In this document: positions 31,576-59,715 of the stretch, in pieces | Numbering within the stretch: the stretch's first letter is position 1 | How the letters are laid out: each line of letters begins with the position of its first letter | Origin: Beroe forskalii | Taxonomy: Eukaryota > Ctenophora > Nuda > Beroida > Beroidae | Length of the DNA: 64,000 nt | Direction of reading: 5' to 3' | NCBI GenBank assembly: GCA_011033025.1 | Contig: WFMF01000088.1 | Location: forward strand, 248,001-312,000 | Made by a program: the position numbers and the translations under genes | Notes under the pieces: generated by a model | Databases searched by the model: none | The model's input: the letters and a program-made list of their open reading frames with translations, nothing else | Told to the model about the DNA's origin: nothing

Positions 31576-33549
31576 TGGTGTGACTCAATTAGATACTACT
31601 GCTCTCCACATTGCATTACCTGAAGGAGTTAAGGGATCATGTTGTTATTGGGTATTCAAGTACGGAGTTGGAGAAAAGTCTTCCAGATTTATGTCTTGAA
31701 GAATTAGAAAGATTTCTCTATAATTCAAATATACTCACGAATAGGCAAATGCTGAACTTAGTGATATTGTTGGCTCAACAGAATTGAGAATTTCATATCT
31801 ATCTTATGATTATTTCAAAAGATTGTAGCTTAATTCAATGGATTAAAGATTTCCAGACCAGTCTATAAGATGATACATAGCACCCTCTGCATGCCAACTA
31901 GAGAACAATTGGATAGACCTTAAGGGGTTAGATAGATATAAATATGAGTAGGTAAATATCAGCAGGTTATGTAGGAAAGTAGGAAGGGATACGAGTCTTT
32001 TGATGCAATTCATTGAGCATCAATGGGTTTAGCTTTAGTACATATTTATGAGTTCATGAGTATTCAGTATAAAGCATAAAGTAAAGTTATGAGTCACAGC
32101 TAAACAACTATTGACCTATAGTCTCAGAGAGTAAAAGGCCAATTAAGTTGGCTCAAAAATGTCTTTATTTTGACGATGGTGCTGCTTATAAAGTCTGGCT
32201 TGGATTTAATGGATATCAACTGAAATTGAGGATCTCAGTCAGATCAAGAAAACTGCGACTTTGACGACAAAATTATAACGTAAGTGTAAGCACAAAGCAG
32301 CATGAGCAAGTACAATATGCAATAACTCACCGCATCTTCCATGCCAAAGCATGGAGCTAGTCAAATATGATCAGACTGATTCGTGGGATGTTATTGCCAG
32401 GCATTGCCTGTTCCTAAGCCCGCATAGCATTAGGGTGCACCAAAAAAATTAAATTTTTGGTGCTCAACCCCTGAGCGATAGATCTCGGTGAGACAAGACC
32501 GAGGATATTCGGTTTTTTGAAATTGGACCCCGGGAACCCCTGGAGCGTTGACGATTTGTATCGGCCATACTTGTATGGAAGGCGCGGTATGGCGTGACCA
32601 TCCGCGGATTCTACGCGCGCGCATATATCCGCGCGCGCAAGATTCTGCTGTAGTTCCGCGAGATATAGATCGAAGTAGGGTGTACTTGACCGATATTTGC
32701 TAGATCGAAGTAGGGTGTACTTGACCGTTATTTCAAGGAATTTTCAAATGTAGTTTACAACAGAGGCGGAAGGCCGTGTTTATTGAAATATCACACAATA
32801 GCTCCGAATGTTAATGAGGGTGAAGTGCAGTGGTGATGATGCTGAGCATTTGATAAACTGATCGACATAGTATGGCCATGGGCTTGGGCTATTGGGGTGG
32901 GATGAAGCAAATGACAGGACCAGTATGATATGCTGCTGTGCATGTAGAACGGCAGGGGACAATCCTGCTCACTAGGGGACAATGTACATTGTATTTGTAC
33001 TCCCGTGTGTAGTGTCGGTGTGTAACTGTAAACTTGTGTAGGTTGGATGTAATCAGAAAATTTATAGATTTATCGCAAGCACACATAACATATAAATCAC
33101 ACTCAAAATTAATGATTCTTGTGAGTAAGGTTACTGCTTTACTGCGAATGATTCGCTCCAGGTTTGCTGTCAGGGTGAAGGAGGCTGTACATCACTTCTT
33201 CTTCTTCAAACAGCGGAAGAGCACTGCACTGCAACTGTTCCGTTCTGGTTCTTCCTGAACTAGTGGAAGGAAGCATCATCAATGCTTGAAGACGGGTTTG
33301 AAGACGGGTGAAGGCGCGGGTTGGGGCTGAGCTGTCCCGGAAGCTCAGCTCAACTGCGAGGGGGAGCAGCAGCTGCAGGGGATCGGAGGTGAAGGGCAGG
33401 CAGTTACGTGAGGTGATGGGGGAGGAACCTTGAGGTAACCATAGGCATAACTTCAGTGCTCGTTACTGACAGGATGAAATGTGATCTGAGAGCTTATTCA
33501 GGCTTAGAACTTCAGGTATGTCAGCGGCACTAAAAGGGTTCGGATATCC
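31576..33549. other. Non-coding; GC-rich patches and a 35-bp tandem duplication
   Basis: 32590-32645 contains alternating CGCGCGCG. TAGATCGAAGTAGGGTGTAC plus flank is tandemly duplicated at 32666-32700 and 32701-32735. 33290-33440 is G-rich. No exon or transposon end could be confirmed; this is pre-insertion DNA left of LINE copy 1. Confidence 0.4.
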
Positions 33550-36500
33550 TACAGAGAAGGAAGTAGGTCAGGAGGAGTGGCTATCTTAGTCAAGAAGGAT
33601 CTATCGCAAGGTGTGGAGTTTATCAAGAACAAGGAGTGGCCAGATTATCTGACTTGTCGTCTCAAGCGAGACTTCTTCAGATTAGACAAGGACATCTTCT
33701 TAGTCAACGTGTATGCTAGACCTCATAATTCTACTGACCAAAGTCAGCAATCAGTGCTTCAAAGTGGTAAGGAGGTTATCAAAAAGGTTGAGGAGGATAT
33801 CAACGACCTGCGTGAATTGGGGGAAGTAATCCTTTGTGGAGACCTGAATGCAAGAATAGGAAACAGAACTGGCATGGTTCAGTATGACTCCGACCAATTT
33901 GTACCCATGCCAGAAGATTACTCACCAGACGAGGTATCAACAAGGTTTTCGCAAGATGCAACTAGTAACACATATGGTACTCACTTTCTTAACTTAGTAA
34001 AGAACAACCAACTCACTATCCTTAACGGCAGAACACTTGGAGATATGACAGGGAACTTCACTAGTATACAGAAACAAGGATGCAGTGTTGTTGACTACTT
34101 TGTTACATCGCAGGCTATCAATAAGGATGTAAGTTTTATGAAAGTCCTGGATTTCACACCCTACTCTGACCACAAGCCACTCAGCATGGAACTTCGCTGC
34201 AAACCAATGAAGCTAGAGTGCTTGAGACCGTTAGAGGACCAATATGAAGAAGCTCCAAAGAGATTCATCTTCAATGAGGAAAATCGAGAGGCATTCATTG
34301 AAGCACTGAACAACGAGGCATCGACTCAGAAGTTGACTGAACTTCGAGACTTCCTTGACCAGCTCCCCAGGACTAGAAACACAGATGACAGTGGGATAAG
34401 CAAATCAATTCATGACATTAACAACAAATTTACTGAGCATTTACGTGACATAGCATCAAATTGCTTCAAACAGACAAAACAGATCAAAACAAACAAAATA
34501 AACAAGAAGCCATGGTTCAACGGACACACCCGAGCTGCCAAACGTGAACTGAGACAAGCAACCAATACCGTTTCGAGTCACCCTAACAGCGACTTCCTAC
34601 GTGAAAACTTCTACAAAGTCAAGGGATCATACAAGAGACTCATAGACAGTACGAAAAATAAGTTCTTTGGGAAGCTAAACGAAGACATTGAAGGAGGTAA
34701 AGTATTAAACTGGCAGGCATTTAAGAAAATCAAAGGTCACAAGGAGGACAAGATTCCACACGACAGTTATGACATGGACAGATTTGAAAGGTTTTTCAAG
34801 GACCTGTACTCAGACAAACATAAAACTGTAGACGCTGAGAAAAAGGATGAACTACTGAGGGAAGCTGACACAATCAACGATAACGCATCAACACACTCAA
34901 CAGTTCTTAATGATAAATTCACATCTTCAGAAGTTTTATTAGTTATCAAATCATTAAAAGTAGGTAAAGCCTCTTCTAAAGATATGATTAGTAATGAGAT
35001 AATCAAAAGCTTAGATGCTAACCACATTAACTTTTTGACATCGTATTTCAATACCTGTCTAGATTTAGGAATTTACCCGTGGAATGAGAGTATTATTACT
35101 CCTTTACATAAAAAAGGAAACAAATCTGACCCAGATAATTATAGGGCAGTCGCCGTCAGTAGTGTAATAGGGAAGCTGTTTTCTACTATATTACTGGAGA
35201 GATTGATAAAGCATCGTATCGGCACGAACCCAGATCCTCCTAATCAATTGGGATTCACAAAAAACGCGCAGACATATGATCACATCTTCACAATGCAAAC
35301 TATAGCATCAAAGTATAAGAAGCTCAAAAAACGAGTGTATGCTGTCTTTGTAGACTTCAAAAAAGCCTTTGACTCAGTATGCCGTCAGGCATTGTTCTTA
35401 AAATTGGCAAAAAACGGAATAACTGGCAAATTTTATGATATATTGCGGAATATGTACTCTAACTCGAATGCCTACATAAAACTATCAGGGCATGTTAGCA
35501 ATAGGTTCAGAATATCAAAGGGCACTGAGCAAGGTCACCCACTCTCACCAGATCTTTTTAAAATTTTCCTCACTGACCTCTCCAGCTTGCTCGAGATCAA
35601 AGACTGTCCCAGCCTCTCAGGCATTCCTATTAGCCACCTGCTGTGGGCAGATGACTTAATTTTACTGGCGCTAACTCCAAAGGCAGCACAAAAGCAAATA
35701 GATATCTTAGCTAAATTTTGTAATGATTGGGGGATCGAAGTAAACCTGTCAAAAACTAAAGTTGTAGAGTTTGGAGGCTCCAGGAGCCCTAACACTGTCG
35801 ACAAATTTTACCTACAGGGGAAAAGCTTAGAAACTGTGGATTCTTATTGCTATCTAGGGATTGAACTCCATAAGTCTGGTGAATTACGATCGGCGCAGGA
35901 CAGTCTTAAATCAAAAGCAATGCGAGCATTTTTCGGCCTTAAAAGGACTATCATTCGGTCAAAAATATCATACAAAGCTTCAGCAACACTTTTTGATTCT
36001 CTAATTAAACCAATAGCATTGTATGGAGCACCTATATTTACCCCATCGAGTGCTATTATGAAGACAATTGTCAATAACATCAAAAGCAACAAACCATATA
36101 CCAAAAACTTTCTCCCGAAAGTAAGTAGATCACCATCTGAGAAAGTCCATCTCTCTTTCCTGAAATGGGCATTGGGCGTTCATCGTAAATCTTCTAATGT
36201 AGGAGTATGGGGGGAGACTGGGCGGTATCCACTGGTCTACCAGGCTATTAGACTTACTTTGAACTTCTACAAACGGCTGCAAAACCTAGCTGACAGCTCC
36301 TTTGCTAAAGCTGCTCTTCGAGAGCAGAGGTCACTCAAACTACCTTGGTTCAGTAACATTGAGAAACTCGCTGAATTAGACGAAATCTATCACTTAGATC
36401 ATGTCAGTGCTTATCGCATTCTTACTTCTAAAGATAAATCCAACAAGTCATGTGACTTGCCCATCTGTAATCCTCCTCTTAAAGCGCTTAGTAACCTCAG

Positions 36501-36690
36501 AGAGGTTAAACCCCTACCCAGTAGAAAATTCCGAGTTGAGGAAGTTATGAAAAACCTCACCAATAAGTTTATTCAAAGTTGGGAGGATGGGAAATCATCA
36601 TCCAATAAATTGTCGTACTACAACTCAATAAAGCAAAAATTTGCACGCGAACCTTATCTAGACTGCTCAAAGGGCTTTGCACATACCTAG
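33550..36690 (+). pseudogene. LINE copy 1 ORF2: endonuclease and reverse transcriptase, 5' truncated
   Basis: An open frame of about 1040 codons starts inside the endonuclease (homology to the other copies begins near 33550, so there is no native start). Endonuclease motifs: GDLNARIGN near residue 87 and SDHKPL near 197 (counting from 33577), the catalytic Asp/His region of AP-type LINE nucleases. RT motifs: NYRAVAVSSVIGK, VFVDFKKAFDS near 590, GTEQGHPLSPDLF, and the active-site box WADD near 690 in place of the usual F/YADD. The product would nick target DNA and reverse-transcribe its own RNA. The frame ends at 36690 because of a 4-bp insertion (CACATACCTAG versus CACATAG in the 51.9-kb copy). 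Without it the reading would continue into the C-terminal domain. Family: CR1/L2-like, from ORF1 type and motif order. Confidence 0.92.
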
Positions 36691-40573: not shown

Positions 40574-41793
40574 CCCGAATGATAGTCCTTTTAAGGCCGA
40601 AAAATGCTCGCATTGCTTTGATTTAAGACTGTCCTGCGCCGATCGTAATTCACCAGACTTATGGAGTTCAATCCCTAGATAGCAATAAGAATCCACAGTT
40701 TCTAAGCTTTTCCCTGTAGATAAAATTTGTGGACAGTGTTAGGGCTCCTGGAGCCTCAAACTCTACAACTTTAGTTTTGACAGGTTTACTTCGATCCCCA
40801 ATCATTACAAAATTTAGCTAAGATATCTATTTGCTTTTGTGCTGCCTTTGGAGTTAGCGCCAGTAAAATTAAGTCATCTGCCCACAGCAGGTGGCTAATA
40901 GGAATGCCTGAGCTGGGACAGTCTTTGATCTCGAGCAAGCTGGAGAGGTCAGTGAGGAAAATTTTAAAAGATCTGGTGAGTGGGTGACCTTGCTCAGTGC
41001 CCTTTGATATTCTGAACCTATTGCTAACATGCCCTGATAGTTTTATGTAGGCATTCGAGTTAGAGTACATATTCCGCAATATATCATAAAATTTGCCAGT
41101 TATTCCGTTTTTGCCAATTTTAAGAACAATGCCTGACGGCATACTGAGTCAAAGGCTTTTGAAGTCTACAAAGACAGCATACACTCGTTTTTGAGCTTCT
41201 TATACTTTGATGCTATAGTTTGCATTGTGAAGATGTGATCATATGTCTGCGCGTTTTTTGTGAATCCCAATTGATTAGGAGGATCTGGGTTCGTGCCGAT
41301 ACGATGCTTTATCAATCTCTCCAGTAATATAGTAGAAAACAGCTTCCCTATTACACTACTGACGGCGACTGCCCTATAATTATCTGGGTCAGATTTGTTT
41401 CCTTTTTTATGTAAAGGAGTAATAATACTCTCATTCCACGGGTAAATTCCTAAATCTAGACAGGTATTGAAATACGATGTCAAAAAGTTAATGTGGTTAG
41501 CATCTAAGCTTTTGATTATCTCATTACTAATCATATCTTTAGAAGAGGCTTTACCTACTTTTAATGATTTGATAACTAATAAAACTTCTGAAGATGTGAA
41601 TTTATCATTAAGAACTGTTGAGTGTGTTGATGCGTTATCGTTGATTGTGTCAGCTTCCCTCAGTAGTTCATCCTTTTTCTCAGCATCTACGGTTTTGTGT
41701 TTGTCTGAGTACAGGTCCTTGAAAAACCTTTCAAATCTGTCCATGTCATAACTGTCGTGTGGAATCTTGTCCTCCTTGTGACCTTTGATTTTC
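40574..41793 (-). pseudogene. Minus-strand LINE copy, ORF2 RT part (3' truncated)
   Basis: Matches copy 1 from KKIKGHKEDKIPHDSYD through the palm motifs (HLLWADDLILL) to the residues before TIIR, where it stops at the CTCGACGA array, so the RT end, C-terminal domain and 3' UTR are missing. Losses of one or two A residues in A-runs (for example the codons around VDFKKAF, AAAAAA to AAAA) break the frame. Continues upstream at 42410 beyond an inserted MITE. Confidence 0.9.
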
Positions 41794-41797
41794 TTAA

Positions 41798-42405
41798 AGG
41801 CCCCCGAACGCAAAATTTTGACTTTGGCTAATTCCAGAGATCTTAGGGCGTGAAGTACAATGTACTATGTCCCACCCTCTAACTCTAATTAGTTTAGCTG
41901 CTATGGGCGATTGAAAATAGGTCGGGCAGCAGAGAATCCATGTTTACATACCATAATTTGAATAAAAGGCTATCTTTGATGCCTCATAAGTAGACTTCTG
42001 AACAATCAATTTTGACCAACGTTTTTTTGGTCTTTTAGGTCGGAATGGTGTCTAAAAAGATTAAGTGGTTGCCGAGTATGTCAAATCATTTTAACCGATC
42101 AATAATTGCATTTTGATTTACTGCTTGAATATCCGCTGTTGCCCTGCATATATTTTGTTAGAATAACATGCGACATGCACTGTAATGTGATACGTATCAT
42201 CATCACGTTCGGGGAAATATCCGCTCTACTACTGGGAAAATTCTGCTGCCCTTTGAGGAATTTCGTAACTAAATTAGCTATTAGCGGCTTGGAGCATCAT
42301 ATAGAAACCGGATTTTCGCCCTTATTGTTCATACTTTACCTATAAGAACACATTCCGCCATAAAAAATGGAAAATTAAAATTTGAAATTTCATGGTCGGG
42401 GGCCT
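41798..42405. mobile_element. 608-bp MITE inserted at TTAA in the LINE
   Basis: Imperfect terminal inverted repeats starting AGGCCCCCGA, exactly flanked by TTAA (41794-41797 and 42406-42409). Removing the element and one TTAA restores the uninterrupted LINE sequence seen at 34718-34730 in copy 1 (GCATTTAAGAAAATC), an internal empty site. TTAA duplication is typical of piggyBac-type transposition. No transposase inside; a 79-codon frame is unremarkable. Confidence 0.92.
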
Positions 42406-42409
42406 TTAA

Positions 42410-43799
42410 ATGCCTGCCAGTTTAATACTTTACCTCCTTCAATGTCTTCGTTTAGCTTCCCAAAGAACTTATTTTTCGTACTGTCTATGAGTCTTTTGTA
42501 TGATCCCTTGACTTTGTAGAAGTTTTCACGTAGGAAGTCGCTGTTAGGGTGACTCGAAACGGTATTGGTTGCTTGCCTCAATTCACGTTTAGCTGCCCGA
42601 GTGTGACCATTAAACCATGGCTTCTTGTTAATTTTGTTTGTTTTTATGTGTTTTGTTTGTTTGAAGCATTCTGAAGCCATATTACGTAAGTGTTCAGTAA
42701 ACTTGTCGTTAATTTCATTAATTGCTGTGCTGATCCCACTATCCTCTGTGTTTCTAGTCCTGGGGAGCCTGTCCATTGCATCTTGCAGTTCAGTTAGCCT
42801 CTGCTTTGATTGCTCACTGTCTAGAGCTTCAATGAATACATCTCTGTTTTCTTCATTGAAAATGAATCTTTTTGGAGCTTGTTCATATTGGTCCTCAAGT
42901 GGCCTCATGAACTCTAACTTCATTGGTTTACAGCGAAGTTCCATACTGAGTGGCTTATGGTCAGAGAAGGGTGTGAAGTCCAGGACTTTCATAAAACTAA
43001 CATCCCTGTTTACAGTCTGTGAGGTCGCGAAATAATCAACAACACTGCACCCTTGCTTCTGTATACTTGTGTAATTCCCTGTCATGTCCCCAAGTGTTCG
43101 GCCGTTAAGGATTGTGAGTTGATTGTTCTTTACTAAATTTAAGAAGTGAGTGCCATATGTGTTACTCGTTGTATCTTGTGAAAACCTTGGTGATACCTCG
43201 TCTGGTGAGTAATCTTCTGGCATGGGTACATATTGGTCGGAGTCATACTGAACCATGCCAGTCCTGTTTCCTATTCTTGCATTCAGGTCTCCACAGAAAA
43301 TGACTTCTCCCAATTCACACAGATCATTGATATCCTCCTCCACCTTTTTGATAACCTCCTTACCACTTTGAAGCACTGATTGCTGACTTTGGTCAGTAGA
43401 ATTATGAGGTCTAGCATACACGTTGACTAAGAAGATGTCCTTTTCTAATCTAAAGAAGTCTCGTTTGAGACGACAAGTTAGATAATCTGGCCACTCCTTG
43501 TTCTTGATAAACTCCACACCTTGTGATAGATCCTTTTTGACTAAGATAGCCACTCCTCCTGACCTACTTCCTTCTCTAAGACTTGTCACTGTACTGTAAC
43601 CTGGTAGGTGAACCTCCTCCCTAACTTCCTGTAGGCAAGCAAAGTCGTGTTCAATGATAATCTTTTTGAACTCTTTGATACTAAACTTGTTCCCTTCAGT
43701 CGTTGATGAAGCTTGAATGTTCCACGAGAGAAATTTTAAATTTTGCTTCGTTGTAGAGATACGGCTTTTGTTTGATTTTGTTTTGTTTGTCATTGTCAT
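42410..43799 (-). pseudogene. Minus-strand LINE copy, ORF2 N-terminus: endonuclease
   Basis: Native ORF2 start (MTMTNKTK; ATG at 43799-43797). The AP-type endonuclease domain follows: KFLSWNIQASS near residue 22, ACLQEVREEVH near 54, GDLNARIGN near 170 and SDHKPL near 280. About 460 codons are intact until the TTAA MITE interrupts the linker before the RT. Compared with copy 1 this preserves the missing 5' part of ORF2, so together the copies show ORF2 as endonuclease, RT, CCHC-like C-terminus. Confidence 0.92.
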
Positions 43800-43803
43800 G
43801 TTA

Positions 43804-46800
43804 TAGTAAGGGATTGACCCGTAACCCCCTGTGAACTAAATCCTCCCAAAGATGTTAGAACGTTTTTCGGTAGTTCATAGGTCATAGAAACCCCCTAAGA
43901 AAGTTATCCAAAATTCCTTGGGAACCCTGATTTTTACCCCTTTTTACCCGCGTGTGGGTTAAAACTTTAAATGGCGATATCTCGGCTTCCTTTTGAGATA
44001 CGGAGCTCAACAACCGCACTAAAATATGCGCAATGGACACATTTAGTTGGGCGGGTCATGGTCCCAGGTCGCTATTTTGATCCGTTTTCGAGATAATCGC
44101 CAAAACCCCTTTTCATATGCGCGAAGGGGTAAAAAAGTGGTCCCGGTAAATACAGCTGTACTGTGAGTAGATTGGCACTTATTATGATCACAGACACGTC
44201 TATCAGTTCTTCATAGCCTAAAGTAACACCAGAAAAAAGTTATCCAAAAAATTCCATAATTTAACCCCCTTTTCACCCCTTTTTCAAGCCCCTGCATAAG
44301 CCAAATTTTCAAATGGGGATATCTCGGCTTCCTTTTGAGATACGGAGCTCAGTAACCACTTTAAAATATGCGCAATGGGCACATTAGGTTGGGCGGGTCA
44401 TGGTCCCAGGTCGATATTTTGAACCGTTTTCGAGATAATCGCCAAAAACCCCTTTTTTCGCTATGTGCGAAGGGGTAAAAAAGTGGTCCCGGTAAATACA
44501 GCTGTACTGTGGGTAAATTGACACTAATTATGATCATAGACATGTCTATCAGTTGATCATAGCCTGAAGTAACACCAAAATAAAGTTATCCGAAAAAATT
44601 CCATAATAAAACCCCCTTTTCGCCCCTTTTTCAAACCCCTCAATTGACTTTCAATTGAGATATCTACAGAGGTCAACAACCACTCTAAAATGTCTAGAAT
44701 GACCACATTTGGTGGGGTAGAACAAGGTTGCAAGTTTCTATCTCATATCTCATATCGATTTGATGGAATTTGGAAATTTTTACCAAATTCAGGGGGCTAA
44801 ACGTATGAAAGAGGTCAAAATACGTCTTAGGTGAGTCATCATTTTGATATACAGTGACCATTTCTGATTGACCATTCGTGGTATTCAGGTAAAATTTTAG
44901 AGCTGGCCATACCATAAAGCAAATTCACATAGAGCAAACCCACCCATAAAGTAAACTGCAAAATATTTTGGATGAAAATTCTGTGATAGATGTACAGTAA
45001 TCATGGAAAGTATGGATACTCTAAATGAGACCATTCATCATAATGACACTTCAATATTTTTGACCTTGGCCAAACAAACACAGTTGAAATGAAAATACAA
45101 ATACAAGTTCCACTTGCATTTTAGGAAGCTTTTGTCCCAACATATATGGTTTTTCAGATTGGATTCATCCCTTCCGGTAGAGAGCCATGCTCAAATATTA
45201 TGCTGCCAAACGTACTGGCCAGGAAAGATGGGGGTTTCTACGGAATTTAATGTCAATCCGACAATGCATAGATGGCCTTAAAGCATCAATTTCGTGCTCT
45301 TGCCTTAATAATGTATTCAACATAACTTGTCCATTCATGATATCGCATTGCAAGCAATTGTCAACTTTCATTATGGGTGGTGGCATACTGGCATATGGCT
45401 GGCCACAAACCACAGTTCTATTGCTGTGAGTCTAGCTGGGCGTCGGAGTATGGTTACCATAAATGTATAAATGGGTGTGCCCTTGGATTTTGGAATGGTT
45501 TCTCAAGAATTTAAGTTAAATTAAAGGTAAATTCCCAAGCACTTACCACAAGATATTATACCCACCTGAAAAAAATGACTCTTCAAGCAGATATTAATCC
45601 CAACTCTGGCAGCAAGGAAGATATGGGATATACTTGGTTGGATATATCCCATGTTAAAACACTCTTTAGAGAATGACATCATGAAAGCAACTATCCAACA
45701 TCTATGAGGCTTATCTGATAAAGAGAAAAGCTTTGGCAAACTGTCAAAGAGGACAGAAATTTCCTTACTGGCAGCATTTATGTTGTTTATTGTTGTAAGC
45801 ATTATTCTGTGTGCTTTCTGCTGGAGAAAGAAGTTCAGACCTTATGGGTTTGAAAGATAAGTAGCATCTAAATCTGAAGGACCCTTATAACTTGATAAGA
45901 TGAAAAGAAGTGATTTTAGTTGCTTATTTTGTAATTTCGAAACTTAAAATTACTGCTTCCCCATTTCAGTACGATGTATTTATGGATTATAATAGTGTTT
46001 TATGTTTTGTTAACAATCAGAAATGGTCATCTTATGTGAAAATGATTACTCGCCTAAGACGTATTTCGGCCTCTTTTATGCGTTTAGCCCACTGAATTTG
46101 GCAAAAAATGGGGTTTTTAGAAATTTTCATCAAATTGGTATGATATAAAGACTTGAAACCATGTTTTAACCCACCAAATATGCTTTTTCTAGACATTCTA
46201 GATTGGTTGTTGACAGCTGTAAGACCTCCATATCTCGATTGTAAGTCAAAATATCCCAATTTCAAAATTTGGCTTACACAGGGGTTTAAAAAGAGGTGAA
46301 AAGGGGGTTTAATTATGGAATTTTTTGGATTACTTTATTTTGGTGTTACTTCAGGCTATGAACAACTGATAAACATATCTATGATCATAATTAGTGCCAA
46401 TTTACCCACAGTACAGCTGTATTTACCGGGACCACTTTTTGCCCCTTCGCTCATGATAGCAAAAAGGGTTTTGGCGATTATCTCGAAAACGGTTCAAAAT
46501 ATCGACCTGGGACCATGACCGCCCAACCAAATGTGACCATTGCGCATATTTTAAAAGTGGTTATTGAGCTCCGTATCTCAAAAGGAAGCCAAGATATCCC
46601 CATTTGAAAATTTGGCTTACGCGGGGGTTTGAAAAAGGGGTTAAATTATGAAATTTTTTGGATAACTTTTTTCTGGTGTTACTTTAGGCTATGAAGAACT
46701 GATAGACGTGTCTGTGATCATAATAAGTGCCAATTTACCCACAGTACAGCTGTATTTACCGGGACCACTATTTTACCCCTTCGCGCATAGCGAAAAAGGG

Positions 46801-47115
46801 GTTTTTGGCGATTATCTCGAAAACGGATCAAAATAGCGACCTGGGACCATGACCCGCCTTCTAAATGTGTCCATTGCGCATATTTTAGTGCGGTTGTTGA
46901 GCTCCGTATCTCAAAAAGAAGCCGAGATATCGCCATTTAAAGTTTTAACCCACAGCGGGTAAAAAGGGGTAAAAAATCAAGGTTCCCAAAGGAATTTTTT
47001 GGATAACTTTCTTAGGGGTTTCTATGACCTATGAACTACCGAAAAACGTTCTAACATCTTTGGGAGGATTTAGTTCACAGGGGGTTACAGCCTGGGGCAG
47101 ATACATCCCTTACTA
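43804..47115. mobile_element. 3.3-kb foldback element inserted between LINE ORF2 and ORF1
   Basis: Long inverted arms (about 43804-44885 and 46010-47115), with ends TAGTAAGGGAT / ATCCCTTACTA, and a loop of about 1.1 kb. The left arm carries about three tandem diverged units of about 335 bp, with recurring GATATCTCGGCTTCCTTTTG, GGGCGGGTCATGGTCCCAGG and CGAGATAATCGCCAAAA; the right arm mirrors them. It replaces the short ORF1-ORF2 spacer seen in the 54-kb copy (41 nt). Flanking TA or TTA may be the target duplication. The loop has only short frames and no transposase motif, so it is non-autonomous or holds unrecognised sequence. Confidence 0.88.
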
Positions 47116-47157: not shown

Positions 47158-48756
47158 TTACCTGGGTCTTCTTGATGGGCGGGTCTTTGGTGGTCTGTTG
47201 AGGATTTTCCGAGTCAGCTCGTGGATGTGATGCCTGAAGTTTCCGAGGATCTTTGTTTTTCCCGAGTCAGACAGATGCAGGTTGTCATGGCTGCAGTTCT
47301 CTGGAGATAGTCCTCCATCATCTCCCAGGTTCTCGTTCACGTTCATGAGGATGCTGCAGTCCTTGAGAGGGCGATCATGGGGGCTGAGACTGTCGACGTA
47401 GGCTTTCAGGGCATCCCGGAGAAGCATGATATCCTCATTCACCCTGTTAGGTCCAGGTCCTGCTCTTCTTGTCCTCAGGGGAAGGGATATGAAGATCTTG
47501 TTGCCTGGGAGCTTCCTGTCTGCATAAGTCTTGAAGTCTCTGAGATCCTTGATGACGTCCTCGGGTCTCCTGTGGTCCATCATGTCGTTGACCCCGAGGT
47601 GGATGTAGATGAAGTTGGGGTGCAGGTGTTCCAGCTTTCTCATAAGGTCTCGGTGGGAGAGACCTGATGTTCCTCGTTTGTTGAACACCTCCAAGATGTG
47701 ATTCTGCCCGAGAGCTTCGTGCTCTCCCATGTCTCCAATGTGTCGCATCATGGAGTCAGTTATCAGGACGGTTTTGAATACTGGCCTCCCAGCTGGTGCA
47801 GGTGGTCTAGCAGGGACTTCAGCTGATGTTTCTTGATGCGTAGATGACTGGGTAGCTGGCTGAGATGAAGGAGGTAAGACGCTAGGAAGAGGTAGCCTTT
47901 CCACTGCCGAAGTCATGCTAAACCCACAGCTCCGTCGAGAGTCACTCTGCTGCTGGGGTCTCTCTTCTGATGGTCCTGAGTGACGTCTCACCGCAAGTTC
48001 CACAGGGGCTGATGACGGTTGGTGCTCGGAGTTCCTGAGTCTGAGTTCCTCGAGATGTTCTTGAGCTGTCTGCACTGGTTCGCCAGGACTTTGGGTGATG
48101 ACAGGTTCTTCACCTGGTGAACTCCTCCTTGGACAGACTCGTGAGTGGATCTCCTTGATCAGGTTCCCATCCTCCCTGAAGAAAGCGCTGTTGTAGTAGT
48201 TCTGTAGGTCCGTCTTCATCTTCCTGATGCTCTGGTTGATCTCTTCTGACTTCTTCTGAGCTACATCAAAGTTGTGGATGGCGGTAGTGACCCTGGTGTT
48301 GACCTGCTCAATGGCTCCGGTGTTCTGCTGCCAGAGTTCCCTCAGCTCCTTTGTCACTGCCCGTACCACCCTCTCCTTCACTTCGGTCTGATCAGAAGAT
48401 TTGGGACTCGACATAAGGCCGACTTCGTTCTTCAGTCCGCTGACCTCGTCTGTTAAATGCTGCATGTCTTTCTTGATATCCAACAGAGCTTTCTCCATGA
48501 CAGATTGAACCCATTCCAGTGATACAGACTGAGAGAGATGAGTGGTTGCTACCTCCTCTATGACTGTCTCGTCAGGTGTGATCCTGGGGATGACAGTGAC
48601 ATCAGCTTCTTCCTCTTTGGCATCTTCTTTGGCATCTTCCTCCTCTTCTTCTTCTTCCTCTTCTTCTTCCTCTTCTTCTTCCTCTTCTTCTTCCTCTTCT
48701 TCTTCCTCTTCTTCCTTGACTGGTGATGTCGCCGTCATCTGTTCCTCTTCATCCAT
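47158..48756 (-). CDS. LINE ORF1 with SGNH-hydrolase-like (esterase) domain
   Basis: From ATG at 48756 (LA-MDEEEQ, context GGCAATGG) to the stop at 47158: about 533 codons. The open frame extends further upstream without an ATG. Order: an acidic run of about 27 Glu from a (GAAGAGGAA)n tract, a charged helical region (EWVQSVMEKALLDIKKDMQ...), a Pro/Ser/Gln-rich linker, then an SGNH domain. Block I is LITDSMMRH near residue 330, block III GVNDMMD near 390, block V DNLHLSDSGK near 489, so the Ser, Asn, Asp-x-x-His set is present. Esterase-type ORF1 proteins are known in CR1-clade LINEs and are thought to aid RNP or membrane functions. The frame is intact; the same protein is at 54409-55986. Confidence 0.9.
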   Translation of the reverse strand: MDEEEQMTATSPVKEEEEEEEEEEEEEEEEEEEEEEEEEEDAKEDAKEEEADVTVIPRITPDETVIEEVATTHLSQSVSLEWVQSVMEKALLDIKKDMQHLTDEVSGLKNEVGLMSSPKSSDQTEVKERVVRAVTKELRELWQQNTGAIEQVNTRVTTAIHNFDVAQKKSEEINQSIRKMKTDLQNYYNSAFFREDGNLIKEIHSRVCPRRSSPGEEPVITQSPGEPVQTAQEHLEELRLRNSEHQPSSAPVELAVRRHSGPSEERPQQQSDSRRSCGFSMTSAVERLPLPSVLPPSSQPATQSSTHQETSAEVPARPPAPAGRPVFKTVLITDSMMRHIGDMGEHEALGQNHILEVFNKRGTSGLSHRDLMRKLEHLHPNFIYIHLGVNDMMDHRRPEDVIKDLRDFKTYADRKLPGNKIFISLPLRTRRAGPGPNRVNEDIMLLRDALKAYVDSLSPHDRPLKDCSILMNVNENLGDDGGLSPENCSHDNLHLSDSGKTKILGNFRHHIHELTRKILNRPPKTRPSRRPR

Positions 48757-48926
48757 TGCCAAGATGTCAGAGACACGCTCAAGAGTTGAGTCAAGATTTA
48801 TTTCTCCTTGAGGTTCAGTTGCAGATGGTGTGCAGGTCTGTAATGTCAGATTACCAAGGAGGGACAATTCCACCACTTCGCTGTCAGCTTCCCGTTCACT
48901 GCCTGAAGTCTCGTCCTCAGATGTAG

Positions 48927-49988
48927 TTAATGCTCCTGCGCTCGGCTCCGTGGGGGCTTCAGGCTCAGATCCAGGTTGGTGCTCGGAGTTCCAATGAAGA
49001 AGAGCAGTAACTGCTCCTGATGATCTGTTCCATCGCCTCTGGGAACTGAGTGCCTGTACTGAAGGGACGCCTCTCCTGCCAGGGTGGTCAGAGAGCCAGG
49101 ATAGAGTGCGACTCTATGAGAGGCGTTGGATCCCTTCTTCAGGTTGAGTGGTCGTGCAGCTCCAAATGACAGGATAGAGACGACAGGGTTGGGTCCTTTG
49201 CCTTCCACTCCAGAGTATGACTCGTAAGAGATGTGCTCCTTGGATGAGGCTAAGCGCTTAATCTCGACTTTGAAGATGGTTGAGTCGATGTGGAACATGA
49301 ATTGTAAGGCCTTTTCGACTTTCTTCTGAAGTGACTTTATAATCCTCATCAGCTCCTCTCGTCCAGGTTCTGAAGCCTCCAAGTTGACTTTAATCCCAGT
49401 CTTGGCACTGCCGAAAGATGAGTTTTGAATCCCTATGTTGAGACCATCGAGTGTTGATTCTGCTTCTTCGGAGCTCAGGAAGTCCTTGATGTAGTTGAGC
49501 GAGCAGAGCCTCTTCATGGGGTCCATGATGTACTTTCCGCTGGAGTCCACAGCCTTGGGTTTGTAGTCCCTGGTCTTCTTCTGCTTGGTGGAGTCTGGTT
49601 CTGAGCCAGAGGGTACGTCACTTCGCTCAGAGAATGAACGTACCCGTCTTGCCACCTTCTCGTTCGGCGTAAGAGACTTCCCCATGGTGGGCTGACTGCT
49701 GGTGCTCCTATTCCTCGTACGTCCTGAGACAGGGGTCTGAGGGGGTGTACTTGGAGGCTGGGTTGAGAAGTCAGTAGAGTGCACCATGTAGACTGCGTGC
49801 TCTGAGTGAGAGAGAGTCCATGAGCCAACGTCCAGCTGCTTACTAATCAAATGAGAGGGTAGCTCGAGACCCTTCGGATTCAAATTGAAAACAAAGTGAG
49901 AGACTGAGATAAGGGCGAGAATTAAAAGAATCCAGCTGATTTTCAGCGCTCGATGTTCATGTAATGATTGTATCATGTACGTGTACAC
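48927..49988 (-). CDS. LINE 5' ORF with a degenerate AlkB-like dioxygenase domain
   Basis: A 353-codon frame just upstream of ORF1. The last 170 residues match the AlkB 2-oxoglutarate/Fe(II) dioxygenase pattern: NYIKDFLSSEEAE, KEHISYESYSG, GPNPVVSILSFGAARPLNLK, YPGSLTTLAG, YRHSVPRG. In active AlkB enzymes the HxD iron motif lies where this protein has E-S-Y (ISYESY), and the final RxNLTFR-like strand reads EQLLLFF. Only the distal His (RHSVPR) is kept, so catalysis is doubtful. The N-terminal 120 residues are Ser/Thr/Pro-rich after a hydrophobic stretch (ISWILLILALISVS) that may be untranslated. It ends at 48927, 170 nt before the ORF1 ATG, in a different frame that overlaps open ORF1 sequence. 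It may be a separate ORF or frameshift-fused to ORF1. Confidence 0.6.
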   Translation of the reverse strand: MYTYMIQSLHEHRALKISWILLILALISVSHFVFNLNPKGLELPSHLISKQLDVGSWTLSHSEHAVYMVHSTDFSTQPPSTPPQTPVSGRTRNRSTSSQPTMGKSLTPNEKVARRVRSFSERSDVPSGSEPDSTKQKKTRDYKPKAVDSSGKYIMDPMKRLCSLNYIKDFLSSEEAESTLDGLNIGIQNSSFGSAKTGIKVNLEASEPGREELMRIIKSLQKKVEKALQFMFHIDSTIFKVEIKRLASSKEHISYESYSGVEGKGPNPVVSILSFGAARPLNLKKGSNASHRVALYPGSLTTLAGEASLQYRHSVPRGDGTDHQEQLLLFFIGTPSTNLDLSLKPPRSRAQEH

Positions 49989-50748
<760 letters not shown>

Positions 50749-51513
50749 GGTTTACAGGTTTACACAGGTTTAAAATTCAAATATTGGCCAGCTAACGCTA
50801 ACCGCCATATTACAAAATCATATTGTAAATATAAATATTTCAAATTCTAAGCACACAATACTTTATTTAAACAAACTTTGTCGTGATTTTTTCACGTCTC
50901 GGTGTATTTCAGTTCATCACGTCATACTTCATTCATTCATAACGATAAAGTCATTTCAAAATCATTAATTTTAGAAAGGTTTGTTTTCATGTCTCGATTG
51001 GTTTGAAATCATCTCCCAATACTTCATTCAATCATAATCATACCTCAATCGTTCATTTCATCAAAATTCATTTCCATGTCTCTATTTGTCTCAGTTCACT
51101 TCAAGTATCAAGTATCCCAAATGTCTAGTTTAAAGTGTATTTAAAATCAAATACCAACAATTAATAATTCTCATTTTCAGATGTATATTTTCTCCCGCAC
51201 TTTGTGCATAATATATCCAATGCAAGAAATTTCATCATTCATTGCGCGAGGCACATTCTCGCGTTTATACAATGTACCTACAGGAAATTTCAATTTCACT
51301 GCCAAAGCGGATAACCCCAGTTCACACTTGCATGGTGTCGTTTACTGTGTGCGCGTTAAATAGCCTATTCATAATCCAGCTTCATAGGTTTATCGAAATC
51401 ACGCTTGGGGGAATTCTGTTTTCCCTGATCGACTTTTTATACTTGACCCGAGTTTTAAACGCATTGCAAATAAATGAACAAATGCAGTTTATTATGTAGG
51501 ATTGGTGCTGCTT
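50749..51513 (-). mobile_element. LINE fragment: 3' UTR and tail
   Basis: Reverse complement of the copy 1 3' UTR (37211-37885). On the minus strand it ends ...TTTTAAACCTGTGTAAACCTG then runs into (CA)n. Confidence 0.9.
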
Positions 51514-54361: not shown

Positions 54362-55986
54362 TATTAAATCTCGACTCAACTCTTGAGCGTGCCTCAGACA
54401 TCTTGGCCATGGACGAAGAGGAGCAGAAGACGGCGGCATCACCAGTCAAGGAAGAAGAGGAAGAAGAAGAGGAAGAAGAAGAGGAAGAAGAGGAGGGAGA
54501 AGAAGACGTCAAAGAAGAAGATCCCAAAGAGGAAGAAGCTGATGTCACTGTCATCCCCGTGGTCACACCTGACAAGGCAGTCATTGAGGAGGCAGTCACC
54601 ACTCATCAACCTCAGTCTACCTCACTGGAATGGGTTCAATCTGTCATGGAAAGAGCACTGTTGGACATCAAGAAGGACCTGCAGCAGTTGACAGATGAGG
54701 TCAGCGGACTGAAGAACGAAGTCGGCCTCATGTCGAATCCCAAGCCTTCTGATCAGACCGAAGTGAAGGAGAGGGTGGTACGGGCAGTGACAAAGGAGCT
54801 GAGGGAACTCTGGCAGCAGAACACCACAGCCATCGAACATGTCAACAACAGGGTCACTACTGCCATCCGTAACTTTGATGCAGCCCAACTGAAGTCAGAA
54901 GAAATCAACCAGAGCATCAGGAAGATGAAAGCTGACCTCCAGAACTACTACAACAGCGCTTTCTTCAGAGAGGATGGGAACCTGATTAAGGAAATCCACT
55001 CAAGAGTCTGTCCAAGGAGGAGTTCACCAGGTGAAGAACCAGTCATCACCCAAAGTCCTGGTGAACCAGTGCAGACAGCTCAAGAACATCTGGAGGAACT
55101 CAGACTCAGGAACCCAGAGCATCTTCAGTCACAAGACCCTACGGAAGCCACAAAGAGACGTCACTCGGATCCAGGACCTTCAGAGGAGAGACACCAGCAG
55201 CAGAGCAACTCAAGACGGAGCTGTGGGTATAGCATGACTTCGGCAGTGGAAAGGCTACCTCTTCCTGCAGTTATACTCCCCTCATCAGAGCCAGTAGTCC
55301 AGTCATCTGCGCGTCAGGAAACATCAGCTGAAGTCCCTGCTAGGCCACTGCCTGGAAGACCAGTATTCAACACCGCCCTGATTACTGACTCCATAATGAG
55401 ACACATTGGAGACATGGGGGAGCACGAAGCTCTCGGGCAGAATCACATCCTGGAGGTGATCAACAAGCGAGGAACTGCAGGACTCTTCAACCGGGATCTC
55501 AAGAGAAAGCTGGAAAACCTGCACCCCAACTTCATCTACATCCACCTTGGAGTCAATGACATGATGGATCACAGGAAACCGGAGAACGTCATCAAAGATC
55601 TCAAAGACTTCAAAGCATATGCAGACAGGAAGTTCCCAGGCAACAAGATCTTCATATCCCTTCCCCTGCGGACAAGAAGAGCAGGACCTGGACCTAACAG
55701 GGTGAATGAGGACATCATGCTTCTCCGGGATGCCCTGAAAGATTACGTCGACAGTCTCAGCCCTCACGATCGCCCCCTCAAGGACTGCAGCATCTTGATG
55801 AACGTGAACGAGAACCTGGGTGATGATGGTGGACTATCCCCAGAGAACTGCAGTCGCGACAACCTACACCTGTCTGATTCTGGCAAGACAAAGATCCTTG
55901 GCAACTTCAGGCACCACATCCACGAGCTGACTCGGAGAATCCTGAACAGACCACCAAAGCCTCGATCATCAAGAAGACCCAGGTAA
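54362..55986 (+). CDS. LINE copy 3 ORF1, SGNH-hydrolase-like
   Basis: Homology to the minus-strand copy starts at about 54362 (TTAAATCTCGACTCAACTC), so the copy is 5' truncated and lacks the AlkB-like ORF. The ATG at 54409 (MDEEEQ) opens about 525 intact codons: a shorter Glu run, the conserved helical region (EWVQSVMERALLDIKKDLQ), a Pro/Ser-rich linker, then the SGNH domain with LITDSIMRH near residue 323, GVNDMMD near 381 and DNLHLSDSGK near 484. Stop at 55984-55986, 41 nt before the ORF2 ATG. Conservation of both the domain and its catalytic residues between two diverged copies suggests past selection on the protein. Confidence 0.9.
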
Positions 55987-56027
55987 TCTTTTTTAACTTT
56001 CTCCTATCAACATAAACACACAACAAC

Positions 56028-57744
56028 ATGACTATGACAAACAAAACAAAAACAAACAAAAGCCGTTCATCCATAACAAAGAAAAGTCTAAAATTTCTCT
56101 CGTGGAACATCCAAGCTTCATCAACGACTGAAGGGAATAAGTTTAGTATCAAAGAGTTCAAAAAGATCATCACTGAACATGACTTTGCTTGCCTGCAGGA
56201 AGTAAGGGAGGAAGTTCACTTAGGAGGGTACAGTACAGTGACAAGTCTTAGAGAAGGAAGTAAGTCAGGAGGAGTGGCTATTTTAGTAAGAAGGATCTAT
56301 CGCAAGGGGTGGAGTTTATCAAGAACACTGAACAAGGAGTGGCCAGATTATCTGACCTGCCGTCTCAAGCGAGACTTCTTCAGATTGGACAAGGACATTT
56401 TCTTAGTCAATGTTTATGCTCGACCTCATAACTCATCTGACCAAGGCCAGCAATCAGTGCTTCAAAGCGGTAAGGAGGTTATAAACAAGAACTCCTCCAC
56501 CTTGGTAAACAAGAACTCCTCCACCTTGGTGGAGGAGGATATCAACGACCTGCGCGAATTGGGGGAAGTTATTCTCTGCGGAGACCTGAATGCAAGAATA
56601 GGAAACAGAACTGGCATGGTCATGCATGACTCCAACCATTTTGTACCTATGCCAGAAGACTACTCACCAGACGAGGTATCACCAAGGTTTTCACAAGACA
56701 CAATGAGTAACACATATGGCACTCACTTCTTAAATTTAGTAAAGAACAATCAACTCACAATTCTTAACGGCCGAACACTTGGGGACATGACAGGAAATTT
56801 CACAAGCATACAGAAACAAGGCTGCAGTGTCGTTGATTACTTCGCAACCACTCAGACCGCCAACAGGGATGTTACGTTTATGAAAGTCTTGGACTTCACG
56901 CCCTTCTCAGACCACAAGCCACTTTGTGTTGAACTCCGATGTAAACCAATGAAGTTAGAACTCATAAGGCCTCTAGAGGACCAATACGAACAGGCTCCAA
57001 AGAGATTCATTTTCAATGAAGAAAACAGAGATGCATTCACTGAAGCTCAAGATAATGAGCACTCCAAGCAGAGGCTAGCTGAAATGCAAAATGCAATTGA
57101 CAGGCTCCTCAGGACCAGAGACACAGAGGACAGCGGGATCAGCGCAGCAATCAATGACATTAACGACAAGTTTACTGAACACTTGCGTAACATGGCTTCT
57201 GATTGCTTCAAACAAACTAAACACATAAAAACAAACAAAATTAATAAGAAGCCGTGGTTTAATGGGCAAACTCGGGCAGCTAAACGTGAGTTGAGGAAAG
57301 CAACTAATACCGTTTCGAGTCACCCTAACAGTGACTTCTTACGCGAAAACTTCTACAAAGTCAAGGGTTCATATACTTAAGAGACTCATAGACAGTACGA
57401 AAAATAAGTTCTTTGGGAAGCTTAATGAAGACATTGAAGGGGGCAAAGTTTTAAACTGGCAGGCATTCAAGAAAATTAAGGGCCATAAGGAAGATAAGAT
57501 TCCACACGACAGCTATGACATGGACAGATTTGAAAGGTTTTTCAAGGACCTGTACTCTGACAATCACAAAACAGTAGACACTGAGAAAAAGGATGATCTA
57601 CTGAGAGAAGCAGACATAATTAACGACTCCACATCAATTCACTCAACTGTTCTGAATGATAAATTCACATCTTCAGAAGTTCTCTTAGTTATTAAATCTT
57701 TGAAATCAGGTAAAGCCTCTTCTAAAGATATGATTAGTGGTTGA
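56028..57744 (+). pseudogene. LINE copy 3 ORF2: endonuclease and start of RT
   Basis: Native start MTMTNKTK at 56028. Endonuclease motifs as in the other copies (SWNIQASS, ACLQEVREE, GDLNARIGN, SDHKPL). Damage: a compensated frameshift around 56285-56335 (LVRRIYRKGW versus LVKKDLSQGV), a 24-bp unit inserted twice at 56483-56530, and a frameshift at about 57372 (TCATATACTTAAGAG versus TCATACAAGAG) after which the frame resumes at 57378. At 57743 about 230 bp present in copy 1 are missing and unreliable sequence begins. Confidence 0.9.
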
Positions 57745-59715
57745 TGTTTAAAAGGGAAAACGATCCCCAATAATTGGGATTACAAAAAAGAATATGATAA
57801 TCTTCACAAAAAACTATAGCATCAAAGTTAAAATCAAAACGAGGTATCTTCTTTTTGACTTAAAAATTTTCTATGCCTCAGGTTTTTTCAAAATTCAAAA
57901 CGGTCTGGCAAATTTTAGATTTTGGAAATGACTTAATAATGCCCCAAAAACCCCCAAAGGGCAAAGGGAATGGTTCAAAAAAAGGGCATTTAAAGGTAAA
58001 CCCACCAGTTTTTTAAAATTTTTTCACTGCCCCCAAACCCCGGAAAAGCGCCCCGGATTCCTATTGACCTGGGGGAATGACTTAATTTTACTGGCGCAAT
58101 CCAAAACAAAAGCAAAAAGATTTTGCCAAATTTTGTAAATTATCAAAAAAACCTTTTTCAAAAACAAAGTTGAGGAGTTTGAGGCCCAAGGAGCCCTAAC
58201 ATCCACAAATTTTTTCTAAAAAAAAAAAACTTTTCTTTATTGTATCTAGGTTAACTCCCCAATTTGGGAAATTAAGTCCCGGAAGTCTTAAATAAAGAAA
58301 CGGCATTTTTGGGCCAAAAAGGGCTTCTTTTAAAATTCTACAAAGCTTCGAACCTTTTTTTTCTTAAATTAAAAAAATTTTTGATAAAAAAAAAAAGAAA
58401 CCCATTTCCCTTTCCCATTTCCCCAAAGTTTCCCTTTTTTTAAAAGGGCATTGGGGGTTCCCTTTAAACAAAAAAGGGGGGAACAAACCCTTCTAAAAAC
58501 TTTTAAAATTAAACCTGAAAATTCACTTTTTCTAAAGGGGGAAAAAGTCCTTTTTTTAATGGAAAACGTGGGAATTACCCAAAACCTAGATTTATTTTTG
58601 ACTTCTTCAAATCCATAAATTTTGTTTCCCCCGTAATCCCCCTTTGGCAAACCCGAGGTTAAACCCCACCCAGTAAAAAATTCGAGTTGGGGGAAAGAAA
58701 ACCTCACCAAAAAGTTTTTTCCCAAAGTTGGGGGGAGGGGGAAACCAAAATAAATTTCGTACTACAACTAAATAAAGCAAAATTTGCTGTTTCAAACCCG
58801 GGCTTTGCAATTTTTAAAAACACTTAAATAATTTAAAAGGGATTTTCAAATGGGGGGTTTCCCAAACGGCTAGGTGATGGAAAATTTTGGGGGGGTTTTT
58901 TAAAACCCTTTTGGTGCATGCCACCCGGGGCAAAGGTTGAAAACACTTTTAGTAATAACAATCCCCTTATAAAAATGCCTCGAGGCGAACTCTAACCTCC
59001 CTTTTCCCCCAAAACCCAAAAACCCCAAAAGGGAAAAAATAACCCAAAAAAATTTTTTTGAAACCCTAGACCCCAAAAAAAAGGAAACCCCAAACCCAAA
59101 AATTTTATTTTTTAAAATTTTTTAATGTTTTAAAAATTCTAAAAATCGATTGGGGGAAACCCCGGGTTTTAAAACCTTTTTTTTTAAATTTTTTTTAAGG
59201 CACACTAAAAGAACCCGAATTAATGGGGATTTTATGAAAATTAAAATTTGGTAAATTTTAACCCAAATGCATGGATGAAAGTAAATTTTTTAGAATATTT
59301 AAAAAGTGGAGAAAATATAAAAAAGAAATTAATTTTTGGTATTTTTTAAAAATTTTAAACAGACTTTTGGGATATTTGATTTTAAATAACTAGAAAAAAA
59401 AGACTAAAATGAATTTTGATAAACGAACTTGAGGTAATTTGATTAAGAAGTATTGGGAGATGTTTTTAAACCAATCGAGACATAAAACAAACCTTTAAAA
59501 AAGTTTTGAAATACTTTTCGTTATGTGTTAAATGGGATAAACTGAAAAAAACCGGATAAAAAAAATCACACAAATTTTTTAAAAAAATATTGGTTAAATT
59601 TGAAATTTTATTTACAATTGTTTGTAAAATGGCGGTTGCGTTTTGGAATATTTGAATTTTAAACCTTTTAAAACCTTTTAAAAAAAACCGAACCCCATAC
59701 CTCCACCTCCCCTCC
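57745..59715 (+). pseudogene. LINE copy 3 remainder: indel-saturated RT, C-terminus and 3' UTR
   Basis: The order of copy 1 can be followed (ATTGGGATTAC, TATAGCATCAAAGT, TGACTTAATTTTACTGGCGC, GGAGCCCTAAC, ACCAATCGAGACAT, then TTTGAATTTTAAACCTTTT), but nearly every few bases there is an indel or a lengthened A, C, G or T run. Other copies in the window have only scattered changes. Assembly or sequencing error is the simplest explanation. Confidence 0.85.

Follow-up and report, generated by a model that had tools for sequence, protein, structure and literature searches.

Several retrotransposons and ORF1 proteins described before come close to the element studied here. Ty3/Gypsy elements of the orchid Phalaenopsis contain an AlkB ORF with a functional m6A demethylase domain, and a mutant of this AlkB that lacks demethylase activity retains RNA binding, according to a report in which the domain was proposed to help the elements escape host control via RNA marks (PMC9289625). 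Esterase-type ORF1 proteins (ORF1ps) of LINEs are said to be membrane-binding and to be without defined RNA-binding domains (PMC3905857). Metcalfe and Casane described the reticulate evolution of ORF1 (PMC4120745), and an AlkB-SGNH ORF1 fits such an evolution. The ALKB2 that appears in another article is a host gene (PMC11294593).

The window analysed in this study is a stretch of 64,000 nucleotides of the ctenophore Beroe forskalii (contig WFMF01000088.1, positions 248,001 to 312,000), which holds a minus-strand LINE. A sequence-only reading of this DNA had noticed an AlkB-like frame in the place of a 5' ORF next to an SGNH ORF1. The minus-strand frame is real and runs from stop to stop over 48927-49997 (356 aa); it makes up the N-terminal and AlkB part of ORF1 in the window copy (48930..49997; ORF list and Pfam search). 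The AlkB-like (pseudo-2OG-Fe(II) oxygenase) domain of ORF1 occupies 48975..49532 on the minus strand (PF13532, 4.1e-5; hhalign), and a hydrophobic TM-like segment was located at 49890..49946 on the same strand by a Kyte-Doolittle scan. The TM-like segment was present in five of the six copies scanned (window, L009, L010, L011 and L012) and absent from L015. Further N-terminal homology to ORF1 of L009 lies in another frame at 49976..50303 (minus strand; copy comparison), beside a (GT)n array. The C-terminal frame of ORF1, with the acidic linker, the coil-like stretch and the SGNH esterase, covers 47161..49113 (minus strand; ORF list, Pfam and copy comparison) and is read in a different frame from the AlkB part, as a frame break splits the two in the window copy. 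Its SGNH (Lipase_GDSL_2) domain lies at 47260..47712 (minus strand, E 4.5e-9), and the SGNH blocks DS, GxND and DxxH are invariant across the four rows of alignment A5. The order of ORF1 is an N-terminal part with the TM-like segment, the AlkB-like segment, the acidic linker, the coil-like stretch and SGNH.

In the window LINE, a 3.3-kb insert lies between ORF1 and ORF2; it has inverted termini of about 1.1 kb and a probable TTA target duplication (43803..47115, unstranded; sequence comparison). The endonuclease part of ORF2, belonging to the same copy as the window ORF1, was found at 42393..43835 (minus strand; copy comparison), and what is left of a reverse transcriptase, probably from this copy too, at 40784..41758 (minus strand; blastn to L010, L011 and L012). 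Two more copies lie on the plus strand. The second copy (54365..58787, its end approximate; ORF list, Pfam and copy comparison) is 87% identical over ORF1 and starts within it, at a point beyond the AlkB-like segment, and the third (33508..36687; copy comparison) consists of ORF2 only, open over 1060 aa. Pfam recognised Exo_endo_phos in the plus-strand window copy, and Exo_endo_phos_2 together with RVT_1 in L012, giving an ORF2 with an endonuclease (EN) of the EEP/APE type and reverse transcriptase (RT). A match of about 200 bp to the AlkB region in L014 (about 4854-5198) abuts sequence that lies about 1.2 kb away in the window (49291-49492 and 50687-50845), and this juxtaposition represents either a composite repeat or a rearrangement.

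Whether the segment belongs to the element was examined in the 216-Mb assembly (1134 contigs). The window frame found eight places including the window itself, among them a fragment (C325) and a short piece (C192). At five other genomic copies, the AlkB-like segment and the SGNH esterase are in frame in one long ORF1, with fused stop-to-stop frames of 1982 (C305), 1383 (C409), 1460 (C580), 1195 (C423) and 952 aa (C492), which are 37-75% identical to the window frame. Because the segment and SGNH share frames at these five places, we concluded that the AlkB-like segment is part of the LINE and forms the middle of ORF1. The earlier assignment to a LINE whose ORF1 carries SGNH was thus upheld, and the separate 5' ORF had to be given up in favour of a segment inside ORF1. 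A host ALKBH exon or an unrelated insertion that adjoins the LINE by chance, to which the separate AlkB and SGNH frames of the window copy would correspond, is extremely improbable and was rejected, as it is contradicted by the fused copies; furthermore, 41 of the 92 SGNH (PF13472) places in the genome have a same-strand AlkB within 1.5 kb, compared with about 0.1 expected by chance. The order among these 41 neighbours was AlkB then SGNH in 39 and reversed in 2.

A search with the ORF1 of C423 gave 28 places. The AlkB-like protein segment was present in six of 12 SGNH- or coil-bearing family copies, a set that omits C336, C160 and C295 (distant, SGNH only), the C356 N-terminal fragments and the C325 fragment. 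Protein matches of the other six did not extend N-terminally beyond residue 647, a position downstream of the segment, and DNA was compared for five of them, the sixth being the plus-strand window copy. In C514, the DNA of most of the AlkB-like segment is still present, and four copies (C409b, C436, C580a and C1002+, the last being the window plus copy) begin abruptly downstream of the segment, like 5'-truncated ones. C691, the remaining copy of the 12, was assigned to neither class. C409b and C436 begin at nearly the same position of L010 and are 93% and 98% identical to it from there, and C580a begins at 4300 of L011, to which it is 99.4-99.6% identical, a value that points to recent activity. 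The comparison of copies, proposed in the sequence-only reading as a search for full-length copies without the segment, therefore favoured that reading, with C691 left unplaced. Two observations on these copies are added here. The start points of L104 (C409) and L105 (C436), 5885 and 5890 in L010, lie within 5 bases of each other, which may reflect a shared truncation, a duplication or an internal start. L106 (C580:1740800-1744900), the copy so similar to L011, contains an insert of about 1 kb flanked by an 8-base overlap of L011 coordinates.

The AlkB homology, claimed from the letters of the frame, was borne out at the level of the family. A search with the profile named in the sequence-only reading, PF13532 (2OG-FeII_Oxy_2), matched residues 270-328 of the window frame with E 1.3e-4 and 22.7 bits, which falls under the curated cut-off of 31.2, and this was the sole Pfam match of the frame at E up to 10. 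The matching stretch (GPNPVVSILSFGAARPL ... YRHSVPR; 49014..49190, minus strand) aligns to PF13532 positions 122-180. L010 and L012, like the window copy, score under the cut-off, and a search with the complete ORF1 of L015 did not report PF13532 at E 0.05. In alignment A1, PF13532 matches all seven rows at E up to 1, with a best value of 7.5e-8 and 4.1e-5 for the window stretch (below the curated cut-off). When the profile of the seven copies was compared with the PDB, ALKBH3 ranked first (E 7.2e-4), and coiled-coil proteins were among the weaker matches. Alignment of A1 by hhalign gave 94.8% with A3 (12 active AlkB segments of the same genome), 96.1% with A4 (five standalone AlkBs) and 0.1% with the SGNH alignment A5 as a control, and the matches span A1 core columns 60-173 at most. 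It is very unlikely that the AlkB similarity is spurious and that the segment is a beta-rich domain of another kind: the sub-threshold score of the window frame, the coiled-coil proteins in the profile search, a phmmer search in which the single window frame had no AlkB among its PDB matches and an AlphaFold model of the segment from a single sequence with a pLDDT of 36 would agree with it, but PF13532 is found in seven of seven copies, the sole match to another family came from one member, at E 0.15, ALKBH3 tops the profile search, and the control alignment stayed at 0.1%.

In an AlkB tree, the six window-family rows group together in a single clade (100/100), and its stem is long (2.82). A joint clade of these dead rows and 14 LINE AlkB rows was disfavoured (p-AU 0.024), a value obtained with long branches and with LINE labels given by the analyst. 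No relative of the window family appeared in a search of viral contigs; a viral-contig search with the active LINE alignment A2 found two standalone AlkBs, and a genome-contig search yielded a single one, from a Bacteroidetes MAG.

The catalytic site has been lost in the window family. As had been noticed before, ESY replaces the HxD iron site of the window copy, at 49215..49223 (minus strand) in the alignments. HxD occurs in none of the seven rows of A1, where E or G is found at the first ligand position and Y, L or T at the second; the place of the third ligand, an iron-binding His, varies between H, F, C and R, with His kept in three of seven rows (window, L009 and L011). Nothing equivalent to the 2-oxoglutarate (2OG) arginines (RxxxxxR) was found in the seven aligned rows, and the window and L009 rows are unaligned at H and D in a separate catalytic-residue alignment. 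The lid region that precedes HxD is unrecognisable in the family alignment. The suggestion that only this copy had lost HxD was therefore rejected, since all seven aligned copies are without it. The segment cannot be a normal Fe/2OG enzyme, and catalysis is unlikely, judging by its sequence.

Values of dN/dS (NG86) for the AlkB-like segment were 0.13 (L009/window), 0.17 (L011/L012) and 0.10 (L010/L013), with dS of 0.94 and 1.19 in two of these three pairs, and those of three SGNH pairs were 0.14, 0.13 and 0.10; no ratio was obtained from two more pairs of each domain, AlkB and SGNH, whose dS was saturated. The N-terminal part of ORF1 gave 0.21 and 0.32. The segment is thus under purifying selection about as strong as that on SGNH. 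Because HxD is lost in all seven aligned copies and yet dN/dS is close to that of the esterase, we propose, with a probability of roughly 60%, that the middle of ORF1 in this esterase-type LINE is related to AlkB, has lost the iron and 2OG residues, and has been retained as a non-catalytic module, in line with the pseudoenzyme option raised earlier. There is a slim chance that the segment is active with a rearranged iron site, in which Glu stands for His and other ligands lie nearby; strong purifying selection and the invariant polar residues R93, S122, H139 and S162 (first-row numbering) would suit such a site, but the ligand positions vary between copies (E/G; Y/L/T; H/F/C/R) and the 2OG arginines have no counterpart in the seven rows.

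Returning to the non-catalytic module, the segment has most likely been kept for nucleic-acid binding or for a structural role. In the LINE RNP, the dead AlkB may provide ORF1p with a surface that binds single-stranded nucleic acid or acts as a scaffold, and the TM-like segment and SGNH may bring the RNP to membranes. Binding or scaffolding is the simplest reading of the dead AlkB because the orchid Gypsy AlkB mutant still binds RNA and because esterase-type ORF1ps are said to be without defined RNA-binding domains; the idea of nucleic-acid binding is the weaker for the unrecognisable lid region and for the restriction of the hhalign match to core columns.

AlkB sequences with an intact site are frequent in the same genome. 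At least 150 places match PF13532, as all 150 scored candidates (of 189) were above the curated cut-off, and 99 of the 150 lie in open frames of at least 400 aa, some of which resemble ordinary host AlkB genes. The residues H, D, H, R and R are intact in 79 of the best 80 places of the 150, and one has H for the first R, the 80 having been taken by score, a choice that favours intact sites. A LINE endonuclease ORF was found near the AlkB ORF at 10 of the 20 loci L016-L035, two of which are the query loci themselves. L017 and L032 carry very similar AlkB genes on the same contig (C592); the frame is open over 440 aa in one of them and broken in the other, and no LINE endonuclease match was found near these genes.

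L036, the best example of a LINE with such an AlkB, combines an open ORF1 of 522 aa carrying AlkB with an ORF2 of 995 aa, likewise open, that encodes EN and RT. The ORF1 has matches at 84 places, 16 of which extend over almost its whole length (residue 105 or before to 486 or beyond); 14 of these 16 are without a stop, and they are 41-71% identical, L036 itself excepted. In the active group, dN/dS was 0.09-0.11 for the AlkB and C-terminal parts, at dS of 1.4-2.1. L037 encodes an 805-aa AlkB ORF1 with a weak SGNH match (0.0066); the ORF after it matches PHD and an endonuclease, in both cases below threshold. Pfam recognised SGNH in two of seven active ORF1s and none in L036, where SGNH rests on alignment with L023 and L038, and the active ORF1s (A2) aligned weakly with the SGNH of the window family in hhalign (7.7%). 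Because the RT of L036, the one complete example compared, is 25-27% identical to those of L012 and L010, AlkB-bearing ORF1s accompany at least two distant ORF2 lineages.

The AlkB domain of L036 is nearest in the PDB to ALKBH3 (1.4e-12) and then to ALKBH2. Both of these enzymes remove m1A and m3C, and reverse transcriptases are stalled by such lesions. A putatively active AlkB bound to ORF1 could clear such RT-blocking methyl lesions from LINE RNA or cDNA. The LINE AlkB might instead strip m6A-type marks of the host from RNA to evade host control, with the window family retaining only the targeting or binding part; this is possible, if rather unlikely, for a domain nearest to ALKBH3 and ALKBH2, whose substrates are m1A and m3C and not m6A. 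The intact catalytic residues at 79 of the best 80 AlkB places agree with removal of m6A, as does the functional m6A demethylase domain of the orchid Ty3/Gypsy elements (PMC9289625).

The combination of AlkB and SGNH also occurs outside LINEs. In a Helitron (L039:1266-7343, plus strand), SGNH, AlkB, a proline-rich stretch, DUF6570 and Helitron_like_N (7e-24) follow one another in one open frame of 2026 aa, and the catalytic residues of its AlkB are intact. L022:682-3408 (plus strand) has the SGNH-AlkB order of L039, only this part having been compared. A Helitron passes through single-stranded DNA. Tentatively, and at less than even odds, AlkB with SGNH may be a recurrent module of mobile elements in this genome, arranged as AlkB-SGNH in distant LINEs and as SGNH-AlkB in the Helitron; active AlkB would clear lesions or marks from single-stranded RNA or DNA intermediates, and the window family would have made it a dead RNA-binding part of a membrane-anchored ORF1p.

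RNA binding by esterase-type LINE ORF1ps is an open question, for which the conserved AlkB-like domain is a testable candidate; if the proposed role is true, the dead AlkB supplies the RNA-binding domain that these proteins were thought to lack. AlkB, whose catalytic residues are kept at numerous loci but lost in the window family, forms a natural series of active and inactive domains for experiments, and it would connect nucleic-acid dealkylation both with retrotransposition and with a rolling-circle transposon of the same genome.

The orchid Gypsy elements already provide a known case of AlkB in a retrotransposon. Among the papers listed in a literature search, judged by title and opening of the abstract, none described AlkB inside a LINE ORF1 or a Helitron, and an earlier description is possible; 'AlkB' and 'oxygenase' do not appear in the text of PMC4120745, nor does 'AlkB' in that of PMC3905857. 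With the esterase-type (type IV) ORF1 of CR1/L2 elements such as ZfL2-1 (PMC3905857, PMC4120745), the window family shares SGNH at the C-terminal end of ORF1, the coil-like stretch before it and an EN-RT ORF2 downstream; it adds the AlkB-like domain, the TM-like segment (in five of six copies scanned) and frames of 952-1982 aa. The Phalaenopsis Ty3/Gypsy element likewise is a retrotransposon carrying an AlkB domain, but it is an LTR element with a separate, active ALKBH5-like ORF (PMC9289625), whereas the window family is non-LTR, with AlkB fused into ORF1 and the catalytic residues lost. ALKBH3 and ALKBH2 (PF13532) share the PVVSILSFGAARPL-like and HSVPR-like core stretches with the window family, which differs from them in the loss of HxD in seven of seven copies and of the third His in four of seven, in having no 2OG arginines and in its unrecognisable lid. 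Closest to hand, L036, L037 and L038 of the same genome also have AlkB followed by SGNH (weak by Pfam) in one ORF1, and L036 and L037 also have an endonuclease ORF downstream of it; unlike the window family, these three retain intact catalytic residues, and L036 and L037, the two scanned, are without the TM-like segment.
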